Notes under the pieces: model-generated
Seen by the model: the letters and a program-made list of their open reading frames with translations, nothing else
The model's database searches: none
What the model was told of the DNA's origin: nothing
Shown: in pieces, positions 47,348 through 51,472 of the stretch
Position numbering within the stretch: position 1 is the first letter of the stretch
Layout of the letters: each line of letters opens with the position of its first letter
From: a virus
Strand: one strand, 5' to 3'
Length of the DNA: 64,000 nucleotides
Virus record (IMG/VR): IMGVR_UViG_3300023178_000030
Coordinates: 1 to 64,000 of that record
Translations under genes and position numbers: made by a program

Positions 47348-47401
47348 AAACTTCAACCCCAACTGAAGTTTTATGAGACCCTCGAAAGAGGGTCTTTTTT
47401 T
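47347..47401. terminator. Back-to-back terminators between gp32 and the tape measure gene
   Basis: AAAACTTCA (47347-47355) pairs with TGAAGTTTT (47364-47372); on the minus strand this stem is followed by a T-run and can stop the leftward transcript. AGACCCTC (47376-47383), a GAAA loop and GAGGGTCT (47388-47395), followed by seven T, stop the rightward gp32 transcript. Confidence 0.88.
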
Positions 47402-49253
47402 ATTGATTATGAACTAACTCTATATTATCATCATCAGAAAGCTTATCAACTCTTAAAAGATTTACTGGATGAGTAACACTTTGGTCGATATTATTAGTAG
47501 TAACAACCATATCACCTTGACCACTAGCACTTCTATCTTTTGCAGATAATTCTTCTACTTCAGCTGTTGCTTGTGTAAGTGTAGGATCGTCAGCTGAAAG
47601 TCTTTCACCTGATTTAGTAATTCCTGCAAACGCATAAACTTGATCAGGAATCGCTTCTGATATTGCTCTTTTAATAAATCCAAAAAATCCATCACCATCA
47701 CCAGATGATGTTGGTAAGATTGCTCTTAAAATCATTCTATAAAAATCTAAATATAAAGTACCTACACCTTTAAATAATGTTTTGATAAATCCTAATGGGC
47801 CACCTGTTCCATCACCAGTAAATGTTTCCTTGAGATAATCTACAAAATTAGTAATTAATCCAAGAAAATTTGTGAACATTTCTTTAACTTTATCTTTAAC
47901 CATAACACCAAAGTTTGTAAGTATTTCACCTAACTGGTCAAAAGCTGTTCCTGAAATAATCCAATCTGCAAAGTCAGAAAACGCTCCAAATATACCTGTA
48001 AACAAATTCATAATTTTATCTTTAATACTAAAACTTGCAAGCGATTCTTGTGCATTTTCAAATCCCATTTTTCCTAGAATCCAACCAATAACTTTTTTTA
48101 GTAAATCTAAAGGTATGCCAACTAGATTACCAAACAATTTGGCAAAACCACCACCAAGACCATCTAAAATTTTTGCAAGATCCGAATCACCTTTTGATTT
48201 CATAAAACCATCAATGAAACCAGTAACACTATCAAAGATAGCGATTGCTAATGTTATTGGAACAAAGATTTTTCCTAAAACTTGACCAAATGTTGTTGCA
48301 AAACTTTTTATCGTTGCAAATCCAGCTTTGAAACCATCCATAAGAGGTTTGAATAATTTGAATATTGAACTAAATAAACCTTTTATATAATTAAATACTT
48401 GTTTAACTTTACCACCAACTTTACTACCACTTCCTGTTATAAACTCCTTTACTATTCTAAATATGTCTACAAATGATTTTATTACATCATCAACAAAATT
48501 AACTAATAATCCAGTAAGTCCAGTAGTGAAAAAGGCTTTAATTGCAGTTATGGCTTTTGAATTTTTTATAATTCTACCTATTGTGCTAAAGAGAGATTTA
48601 AACGCATTAAATAAACCAGTACCAAGATTTTTAACACCTGACATAAGTTTCATGCCACCTAATGCTTTAAAAAGAACTTTTAATTCAAATAAAATCTGTG
48701 AAAATAATCCTGAAATTACAAATAGTGGTGCAAGTAAAGCACCTAAACCAAAACCAGCTGCCTTACCAACTCCTGCAAGTAATCCTTTAAAACCTTGAAC
48801 TGTTACTTTATATAATGCTTCAAGTATAGATGTTTGTTTCTTTTGAGCTCTTTGATCTTCTCTTTTTTTCTCAACTTCAAATGCACTTGCAACTTTTTTA
48901 CCTGCGGCTTTTGTTGCATCAACAATTTTAGTACCGCCAGGTATTGCACCAGGCAATGATTTAAAAAATCCAGTTATTGGACTTATAATGTTTGTTGCAA
49001 CATCAGTAAGTTTCATATCTTTTGCAACACCTTTAAATCCTTGAATAATTGCAGAAGATTGTTTATTATTTTTTTCATTATCTTTTTTATCATCATCAGT
49101 TTTTTGATTAATTTCATCTATACTATCACCCATATAAACAATTGCGTGTGCAATCGCCTTAAGACCCATAGTGTGACGACCATCTCTACCAGCTTCACTT
49201 CTATTGTTAAATTTTAATTGTGTTATTACATCATCTAAAGTTGCACTTGCCAT
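47400..49253 (-). CDS. Tail tape measure protein
   Basis: The 617-aa protein has long hydrophobic and glycine-rich helical stretches (GLLAGVGKAAGFGLGALLAP, LAIAIFDSVTGFIDGFM) typical of tape measures, and sits downstream of a frameshifted tail chaperone gene. Its length is close to T4 gp29 (590 aa), which sets tail length. The N-terminus carries a Lys/Asp/Asn-rich coiled part. It ends the minus-strand tail operon just before a terminator pair. An AAGGAAAT-type ribosome-binding site precedes the start at 49253. Confidence 0.82.
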   Translation of the reverse strand: MASATLDDVITQLKFNNRSEAGRDGRHTMGLKAIAHAIVYMGDSIDEINQKTDDDKKDNEKNNKQSSAIIQGFKGVAKDMKLTDVATNIISPITGFFKSLPGAIPGGTKIVDATKAAGKKVASAFEVEKKREDQRAQKKQTSILEALYKVTVQGFKGLLAGVGKAAGFGLGALLAPLFVISGLFSQILFELKVLFKALGGMKLMSGVKNLGTGLFNAFKSLFSTIGRIIKNSKAITAIKAFFTTGLTGLLVNFVDDVIKSFVDIFRIVKEFITGSGSKVGGKVKQVFNYIKGLFSSIFKLFKPLMDGFKAGFATIKSFATTFGQVLGKIFVPITLAIAIFDSVTGFIDGFMKSKGDSDLAKILDGLGGGFAKLFGNLVGIPLDLLKKVIGWILGKMGFENAQESLASFSIKDKIMNLFTGIFGAFSDFADWIISGTAFDQLGEILTNFGVMVKDKVKEMFTNFLGLITNFVDYLKETFTGDGTGGPLGFIKTLFKGVGTLYLDFYRMILRAILPTSSGDGDGFFGFIKRAISEAIPDQVYAFAGITKSGERLSADDPTLTQATAEVEELSAKDRSASGQGDMVVTTNNIDQSVTHPVNLLRVDKLSDDDNIELVHNQ

Positions 49254-49256
49254 TTA

Positions 49257-49577
49257 TTATTTCCTTTTAAGATATGCTTCTTTACCATAGAAAGCCGCAA
49301 CGATACCTGCACTTGCAATAAAGTATAGATCAGCCATACTTGCAAGAATATCTGCTTTAAGTCCAATTGCATCTGCAATTAATGTTACGATAGGATAAAA
49401 CAACATTCCACATAACGCCATCCAAGCCATCTGTCTTTGAGAATCTTGTCTTTTATCCTCATTATCTAATTCAACTAATTTTCTATCCATTTCCAATTCT
49501 TTATCACTCACAACACCATCTCCATCTAAATCATATTTTGCATAATGTGATTCTTTTTCTAATTTCTTTTGTGCCAT
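49257..49577 (-). CDS. EF-hand protein with two membrane spans (106 aa)
   Basis: YDLDGDGVVSDKELEMD is a canonical calcium EF-hand loop near residue 15. Two hydrophobic segments follow (MAWMALCGMLFYPIVTLIAD and LYFIASAGIVAAFYGKEAY). It lies between the tail chaperone and tape measure genes, where marine T4-like phages often have it. It may anchor an assembly factor or act at infection. AGAGAG precedes the start. Confidence 0.7.
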   Translation of the reverse strand: MAQKKLEKESHYAKYDLDGDGVVSDKELEMDRKLVELDNEDKRQDSQRQMAWMALCGMLFYPIVTLIADAIGLKADILASMADLYFIASAGIVAAFYGKEAYLKRK

Positions 49578-49591
49578 AGTTTTACTCTCTT

Positions 49592-49780
49592 TTATTTATT
49601 GTTATTATGTCGATTTTTCATTTCCTCATCTTCAAGATGTTGAACTAATAATCCTGTGTATATCTCCCTTTCCCAAGGTATCATGTTTTCAATTTCAGTT
49701 AAACTATATTTGTGATGTTGCATCAATGCAAATGTTAATCTATAATAATTCTCTAAATTATTATGAGAAAGGGCTATTAA
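49592..49780 (-). CDS. Minus-one frameshift extension of gp26 (gp51-like tail chaperone part)
   Basis: Directly after the gp26 frame ends, the -1 frame stays open for 62 codons (first LIALSHNNLENYYRLTF, later HHKYSLTEIENMIPWERE) to TAA 49592-49594. The eight T residues on the minus strand (49786 to 49779) give the slippery U UUU UUU with TAA next. The encoded HKYSLTEIENMIPxER motif is that of T4-like tail/baseplate chaperone extensions. Most likely it is made only as a gp26 fusion; an internal ATG at the QHHKY segment is an alternative. Confidence 0.75.
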   Translation of the reverse strand, partial: LIALSHNNLENYYRLTFALMQHHKYSLTEIENMIPWEREIYTGLLVQHLEDEEMKNRHNNNK

Positions 49781-50475
49781 AAAAAACTATTCATTCCTTC
49801 AATAACTATTTCACTTTCTACATTTGTATTTGGATTCATTACATTTATAGTGTGTTTAACTTTAGGAGCTGTTTCAAAAAACTCTTGAACTTTAATTAAT
49901 TGATTATGTGTCATAGAATCAATAAATTCAGTTAATTCTTTTTTGTTCATATCAGTTTTTTCATAAACATTGTCTTTGTCATAAATTTGTTTTACACAAC
50001 TTGCAATCAAATCAAAAACAACTTCCTGTTTTTCTAATTCTAAACTAGACATTTCATTTAATTTAGGATAACCCATAATCATACCAATATCATCAGTTAA
50101 CTTAATATTAGGATCATGACCCTCTGTTTTTATACATTGTACTTGATTTAAATCAATTTCAACTGGAACTTTTGTTTCATTATCATCAGGGCAAGTAACA
50201 TTAACTTTTGTTATTGATCCAACTGATTTGCTTCTCAATTGTATAAAAATGTATTCCATATCAAATGTTGGTAATTCTTTTACATTTAATTTATTGAAAG
50301 TACACGCATCTATTATTTGTTCTAATGCAAGTGCAATTTCATTTTGATTTTCTGAATTCTGTGCAATCATTAACAGTTTTTCTTCTTTCACTAAAAACGG
50401 TCTAAATGCAACTTTCTCACCTGTTGAAGGAAGTGTCAATTCATGTCTTGATGCGTTTAACGAAGGTAATGCCAT
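49777..50475 (-). CDS. gp26: gp26-like baseplate hub / tail assembly chaperone
   Basis: This 232-aa protein begins MALPSLNASRHELTLPSTGE and continues VAFRPFLVKEEKLLMIAQNS, the T4 gp26-family opening (PF12322 type). LPTFDMEYIFIQLRSKSVG is the second conserved block. It ends MNSFF at an eight-T run, beyond which a -1 frame continues. Its place upstream of the tape measure matches frameshifted tail chaperones of other phages. An AGGAG site precedes the ATG. Confidence 0.85.
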   Translation of the reverse strand: MALPSLNASRHELTLPSTGEKVAFRPFLVKEEKLLMIAQNSENQNEIALALEQIIDACTFNKLNVKELPTFDMEYIFIQLRSKSVGSITKVNVTCPDDNETKVPVEIDLNQVQCIKTEGHDPNIKLTDDIGMIMGYPKLNEMSSLELEKQEVVFDLIASCVKQIYDKDNVYEKTDMNKKELTEFIDSMTHNQLIKVQEFFETAPKVKHTINVMNPNTNVESEIVIEGMNSFF

Positions 50476-50500: not shown

Positions 50501-51472
50501 TTAAAATTTTCCTAATTTACCAAATATGTTTCTAACTCTTTTGTTTTTAAGTATTCCACCAAAAAACTTTTTGAGTGAAATAATTCTTTGACTATCTCTT
50601 GCAATTCCAGCTGGTAATGCAACTCTACCTCTTTGTATTGCAGGATTAAATCCAGTAGTAATTTCTTCTCTATACTGATCATATGGTCTACCAACATCTT
50701 TTATGTATGGTGCCCATTCTCTAAATGCAAAACCTACTGTTAATCTTAATATGTCATTGTTTGTTGCTTGACCATAATCTAAAACACTTATTGTTTTAGG
50801 AAATATATCTCTTATTTCTACTGTTGATGTAATTACATCATTTCTATCTAATTGGTGAACTAACATAGTTGTAACATATTCATTATAATAACTTACATTA
50901 TATGTTTTTTGATCTATTATTGTATCTTGCCAATCAGTAAAGAATTGTTTTTCTGAATGGTCATCACTTAAATAAAATACACAAGTAATTTCTTCTGCAA
51001 ATGTTAAACCTTGTGCAACCTCATGTGTTGGGCCATATATATTTTCATTAGTAACTGTTCTTATATTTCTTCCAGGCATTTGAACCTGTGCAAGTCTTAA
51101 TGACACAAATCTAGATGCGTCTACATTTGATGCGGCTTTTTGAGTTTGTATTTGATTTAAAGGTTCAGCTTGAACTGCATCAGTTTGTAATGTTGAAGGT
51201 GCAATTATAATTGCTTCAAATCTATTTGGTCTTGCAAATGAATTAGACCTAGTTTGAAATTGATTTAAATCAAAATTAGCTGTTCTTTTATTTGCAGTAT
51301 CTTGTCCATTAATTAATGGTATTTTATTATCAGGTTTGATAATATTTTCTAATTGTGGTAACTTATCTTTTGGAACTCTATTTCCTACAATATCTTCAAT
51401 CGCTCTTTTAGCTTTATTCTTTACATCATTTATTTTTTTATTGATAGGTGATATTGGTGGTATTAACGCCAT
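50501..51472 (-). CDS. gp54: gp54-like tail-tube initiator (tentative)
   Basis: The middle SFARPNRFEAIIIAPSTL and RNIRTVTNENIYGPTHEVAQG with ITCVFYLSDDHSEKQFFTDW is a tail-tube-like beta fold related to gp19/gp54. The C-terminal half, LRLTVGFAFREWAPY and a basic tail, suits a baseplate-bound tube initiator. At 323 aa it equals T4 gp54 (320 aa). It overlaps the start of its upstream neighbour by one base and lies in the minus-strand tail operon. Confidence 0.65.
   Translation of the reverse strand: MALIPPISPINKKINDVKNKAKRAIEDIVGNRVPKDKLPQLENIIKPDNKIPLINGQDTANKRTANFDLNQFQTRSNSFARPNRFEAIIIAPSTLQTDAVQAEPLNQIQTQKAASNVDASRFVSLRLAQVQMPGRNIRTVTNENIYGPTHEVAQGLTFAEEITCVFYLSDDHSEKQFFTDWQDTIIDQKTYNVSYYNEYVTTMLVHQLDRNDVITSTVEIRDIFPKTISVLDYGQATNNDILRLTVGFAFREWAPYIKDVGRPYDQYREEITTGFNPAIQRGRVALPAGIARDSQRIISLKKFFGGILKNKRVRNIFGKLGKF

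Follow-up and report, generated by a model that had tools for sequence, protein, structure and literature searches.

A probable -1 ribosomal frameshift encoding a tail-assembly chaperone pair in a marine T4-related phage

INTRODUCTION

Phage lambda G/GT is the model system for frameshifted tail-assembly chaperones. A 2016 review described frameshifting of this type as a conserved feature of phages with long tails, "except T4" (PMC5009743). The E/E+E' tail-assembly chaperone frameshift of phage P2 uses the slippery sequence TTTTTTG (PMC3091744). For T4-like phages, a 2025 paper states that poly-T slip signals are known in the genes for the short tail-assembly chaperone (TAC-N), citing Vladimirov et al. 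2022, and it gives a GTTTTT slip site for Vandenendeviridae/Andersonviridae (PMC12846349). Here we describe a gp26-like gene in a 64,000-nucleotide stretch of viral DNA (positions 1 to 64,000 of IMG/VR record IMGVR_UViG_3300023178_000030), the whole of which is referred to below as the window. This gene ends in a run of eight Ts and is followed in the -1 frame by an open extension, and an earlier reading of the sequence alone had proposed that a programmed -1 frameshift joins the two. Our comparison with related phages suggests that the window virus, a marine T4-related phage, very probably produces one tail-assembly helper protein in two lengths, with ribosomes slipping back by one base at the T-run to give the longer one.

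RESULTS

The gp26-like gene lies at positions 49777..50475 on the minus strand, is preceded by the Shine-Dalgarno (SD) sequence AGGAG, and encodes a 232-amino-acid protein assigned as TAC-N. It matched phrog_150 (E 2.3e-72) and PF12322 (E 2.6e-66), the latter with 223.9 bits against a curated cut-off of 24.5 and over the full T4 gp26 family profile. The zero frame ends in AGT TTT TTT TAA, with the eight-T run at 49786-49779 of the minus strand and the putative slippery heptamer T_TTT_TTT within it at 49780..49786. The first codon following a -1 slip is TTA at 49780, which opens 62 codons ending at a TAA stop at 49594-49592, whereas the +1 frame past the slip site is open for 5 codons only. The extension (49592..49780, minus strand), read past the second TTT as LIALSHNNLENYYRLTFALMQHHKYSLTEIENMIPWEREIYTGLLVQHLEDEEMKNRHNNNK and containing the motif HHKYSLTEIENMIPWERE, matched phrog_634 (E 2.5e-26) and positions 237-280 of phrog_150, and is the predicted C-terminal region specific to the long chaperone (TAC-NC). 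These positions agree to the base with the sequence-only reading, which had placed the end of gp26 in the eight-T run and a 62-codon extension with HHKYSLTEIENMIPWERE in the -1 frame. The window genome has a guanine-plus-cytosine content of 30% and contains 23 in-frame T_TTT_TT sequences in approximately 18,900 codons of open reading frame (ORF). The heptamer is not rare in such a genome; therefore, its single occurrence is weak evidence, and the case rests on comparison with relatives.

We gathered relatives of gp26 from viral contigs and GenBank phages and counted them at 90% nonredundancy. Of 124 relatives, 120 had an in-frame T_TTT_TTN where gp26 ends. As a control, we examined a second conserved Phe-Phe pair, located inside these gp26 genes; only 8 of 111 such pairs fitted T_TTT_TT. 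Joint probabilities under a synonymous-codon null were also small; however, we preferred the internal control because the relatives are not independent. The codon before the Phe pair of the heptamer was AGT, GAT, TCT, AAT, GCT, or ACT, with T as the third base without exception, although the encoded residue differed among relatives (Ser, Asp, Asn, Ala, or Thr), and the second slip codon was TTC, TTT, TTA, or TTG (Phe or Leu). Conservation at the slip site is a conservation of nucleotides, beyond that of the protein alone.

Analysis of the sequence beyond the slip site showed that the -1 frame is under coding constraint. The extensions of the relatives were located by scanning from the heptamer, and some carry PYER or PFER. 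Within the first 13 codons past the slip site, the -1 frame contained stops in none of 119 relatives, compared with 78 and 114 for the other two frames. Over the segment before the usual first ATG (47 sequences), codons differing by a single base were synonymous in 68.5% of cases when read in the -1 frame; the figure for the other frames was 14%. The constraint starts at the slip site itself, ahead of the starts annotated in GenBank. The sequence-only reading had named conservation of the T-run and of both frames in related phages as the support to look for, and both proved to be conserved; its proposal of a programmed -1 frameshift is upheld by these frame comparisons and by the contrast between the heptamer and the internal control.

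Ackermannviridae (L008, L093) and the Vibrio phage K357 (L095) are without the heptamer and carry ATTTTC, GTTTTC, or CTTTTC ahead of the gp26 stop; these phages perhaps use a different slip site. The -1 extension of this type holds MPWHLD or MPWHLM, has a related ending, and is mostly unannotated in GenBank. Separately, contig L013 carries from position 1546 a copy of gp26 that is 100% identical to that of the window over the best segment and has an early stop past codon 34, probably an indel introduced by assembly or sequencing.

We looked for elements that might stimulate slipping. An SD-like GAAGGA seen at 49795..49800 of the minus strand, about 8 nucleotides 5' of the heptamer, is a candidate; its anti-SD energy falls in the bottom 5% for positions in gp26, and it resembles known SD stimulators. 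On the 3' side, an A/T hairpin with approximate bounds 49741..49768 (minus strand; RNAfold -7.4 kcal/mol, z -1.2) may act as a weak stimulator. The mean folding z of the relatives just past the slip site was -1.2 to -1.75 and was about 0 at most other tested offsets, so that individual sequences are slightly more stable there than their shuffled versions.

Several observations nevertheless weigh against a programmed frameshift. In Escherichia coli, A_AAA_AAG is far more shift-prone than U_UUU_UUU and U_UUU_UUA (PMC5009743). RNAalifold applied to ungapped alignments of the relatives found no strong conserved or common structure past the site, and selection on GAAGGA beyond the conserved Glu-Gly codons was not shown by a synonymous null (mean P 0.38). 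In addition, an ATG or GTG overlaps the gp26 stop in 8 of 120 relatives and could start the extension separately. This last observation would also be expected if the extension were a small gene of its own, with the T-run a coincidence; translation would then begin at an internal ATG, or ribosomes terminating at the gp26 stop would reinitiate. GenBank often annotates it in this manner, as a separate "gp51 baseplate hub assembly catalyst" (for example, in Melnitz-3, S-RIM8, and Syn19), with starts approximately 50 to 56 nucleotides past the gp26 stop. However, coding constraint begins earlier than these annotated starts, and in 62 of 119 relatives the extension lacks any ATG, GTG, or TTG up to its 14th codon. 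An SD tetramer preceded the first ATG or GTG of the extension in just 6 of 119 relatives, compared with 76 of 119 for gp26 itself, and none was found at the internal ATG of the window extension (context ATTTGCATTGATGCAA). According to the sequence-only reading, its proposal would fall if relatives lacked the slippery run and gave the extension an ordinary start codon with a ribosome-binding site, and these SD counts show a different picture. With early starts often missing and SD sequences scarce, separate translation of the extension is unlikely. The lineages with overlapping stop and start retain the slippery run and might use both routes, and in T-even phages the extension is joined to a domain like gp26, which also speaks against an independent gene. 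Overall, we regard a separate gene as very improbable.

Slippage by RNA polymerase, adding a U at the T-run in place of ribosomal slipping, appears to us less probable still. Eight Ts are long enough for some transcriptional slippage, and eight are found in the window and in 17 further nonredundant relatives. However, the run is exactly six Ts in 99 of 120 relatives, with the register of the ribosomal heptamer kept, which favors ribosomal over transcriptional slipping. The remaining explanation, that a sequencing error or a recent frameshift mutation split a gp51-like gene, has a negligible probability. Homopolymer runs are error-prone on some sequencing platforms, a concern that the sequence-only reading had raised for the eight Ts, but near-identical contigs of other metagenomes (L011, L012, L014, and L017) share the eight Ts, and the heptamer is found in the genomes of isolates, among them S-RIM8, MED4-213, Syn19, and Aeh1, which excludes an error in the run. 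A split gene is refuted by the slip site and the -1 extension past the zero-frame stop in 120 of 124 relatives, GenBank isolates included.

We therefore return to -1 ribosomal frameshifting, by which the window phage, with high probability, produces a tail-assembly chaperone pair from one start codon. Most ribosomes would stop at TAA and release the 232-amino-acid short form (TAC-N, the T4 gp26 equivalent), and a minority would slip by -1 at T_TTT_TTT, with both Phe-tRNAs re-pairing on TTT, to produce a 294-amino-acid long form (TAC-NC, the T4 gp51 equivalent). By analogy with lambda, the domain common to both forms may coat the tape measure protein; the extension, rarely made, may link it to subunits of the tail tube or baseplate hub during assembly.

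Structural modeling was in keeping with a chaperone. An AlphaFold model of the window gp26 had a predicted local distance difference test score (pLDDT) of 85.8, and its residues 1-95 resembled the HK97 tail assembly chaperone 2ob9 (Z 7.7); together with 3fgx and 3klu the scores ranged from 6.6 to 7.7, and the next chain scored 2.7. A Foldseek search of the PDB with the same model returned nothing significant and placed the HK97 chaperone at rank 7, supported only by the second aligner. Support for an HK97 chaperone fold of the predicted N-terminal domain is moderate. The extension alone was predicted to form helices (pLDDT 85.1). A profile search of PDB sequences gave matches at chance level only, and NCBIfam held no model for the gp26 part or the extension. 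The tail-chaperone identity first proposed from the sequence gains support from PF12322, from the HK97-like N-terminal domain, and from homology of the extension to the gp51 C terminus.

The locus sits between two tail genes on the minus strand. Directly upstream of gp26 is a gene for a tail-tube-family protein (50501..51472; phrog_45 tail tube, E 1.6e-34). Downstream is the gene for the tape measure protein, the expected binding partner (47400..49253; phrog_4200 tail length tape measure, E 3.5e-11), in line with the position just upstream of the tape measure region noted previously. One small ORF of 106 amino acids (49257-49577, minus strand; phrog_27150, E 1.7e-8) intervenes before the latter gene; it has an EF-hand-like DLDGDG loop (PF13202, E 0.0075, under the cut-off) and hydrophobic stretches.

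A region like the extension forms the C terminus of gp51 in PG7, T6, 44RR, AV108, and Konradin, with a weak match in Konradin. The PF12322 domain was confirmed directly in PG7 gp51, nearly all of which is covered by phrog_150, a family that spans both the gp26-like domain and the extension. Because gp51 thus consists of a gp26-like domain and the extension in one frame, the predicted frameshift fusion is the equivalent of T4 gp51 and the unshifted gp26 that of T4 gp26. The earlier statement that T4 encodes gp26 and gp51 separately holds, as the two are separate, divergently oriented genes in all five phages; one refinement is that gp51 is more than the extension, being a second gp26-like (PF12322) domain that bears it in one frame. 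The slippery run was present in none of the five T-even gp26 genes. Those of PG7 and T6 still end near Glu-Phe-Phe, with the Phe-Phe codons TTC TTC and TTC TTT. We found no second PF12322 gene with an in-frame extension in the window virus, whose 78,962-base record, possibly incomplete, gave a single PF12322 match.

In a tree of PF12322 domains, for which a root on gp51 was assumed and which has long branches in two rows, the T-even gp26 clade had members of the frameshift type on either side, and Aeh1, CC2, and KVP40-like phages were separate from the cyanophage side. Rooted in this manner, the tree fits an ancestral frameshift lost in the T-evens. We give about even chances to the proposal that the frameshift is ancestral across T4-related phages (Kyanoviridae, Aeh1/CC2 and KVP40-like Straboviridae, and others) and that it was replaced once, in the T-evens, when the gene was duplicated and fused in frame and the slippery run disappeared. 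If true, we would have here a worked example of how a programmed frameshift gives way to two genes, with a wider distribution than published.

DISCUSSION

Our results suggest that the standard mechanism is conserved in most T4-related groups sampled and absent from the T-even group. The title of a 2022 work makes the case for a different mechanism in T4-like phages. A fusion is annotated in none of the GenBank records that we examined; several treat the extension as a gene of its own, a "baseplate hub assembly catalyst," whereas S-CAM1, ACG-2014b, ACG-2014d, and S-MbCM25 (L181, L182, L183, and L184) leave it without annotation in the interval from gp26 to the following gene. In many cyanophage records, the annotation of the short "gp51" ORFs should be changed to that of a frameshift product.

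By its sequence features, the locus belongs to the frameshifted tail-assembly chaperones of the lambda G/GT and P2 E/E+E' kind. The lambda slippery heptamer, GGGAAAG, is unlike that of the window, and the family searches, as far as tested, reported no sequence similarity to gpG/gpGT. The likeness to lambda lies in a short chaperone accompanied by a rare long one, which in lambda arises, and here is predicted to arise, by -1 frameshifting, with binding to the tape measure protein in lambda (PMC5009743). The P2 slip site likewise has no obvious structure downstream (PMC3091744), but the short P2 protein has 91 amino acids compared with 232 in the window, and the window protein belongs to another sequence family (PF12322). 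The T4-like TAC-N genes and those of Vandenendeviridae/Andersonviridae, as presented in the 2025 paper, resemble the window gene in having a poly-T -1 site that ends the short chaperone gene in large myoviruses (PMC12846349). Finally, the T4-type gp26 and gp51 differ from the window arrangement in being two divergently oriented genes, with gp26 lacking a slippery run, but they share the PF12322 domain, and gp51 bears the matching C-terminal extension. Set side by side, the frameshift type and the T-even pair may thus offer a before-and-after view of a recoded gene turning into two genes.
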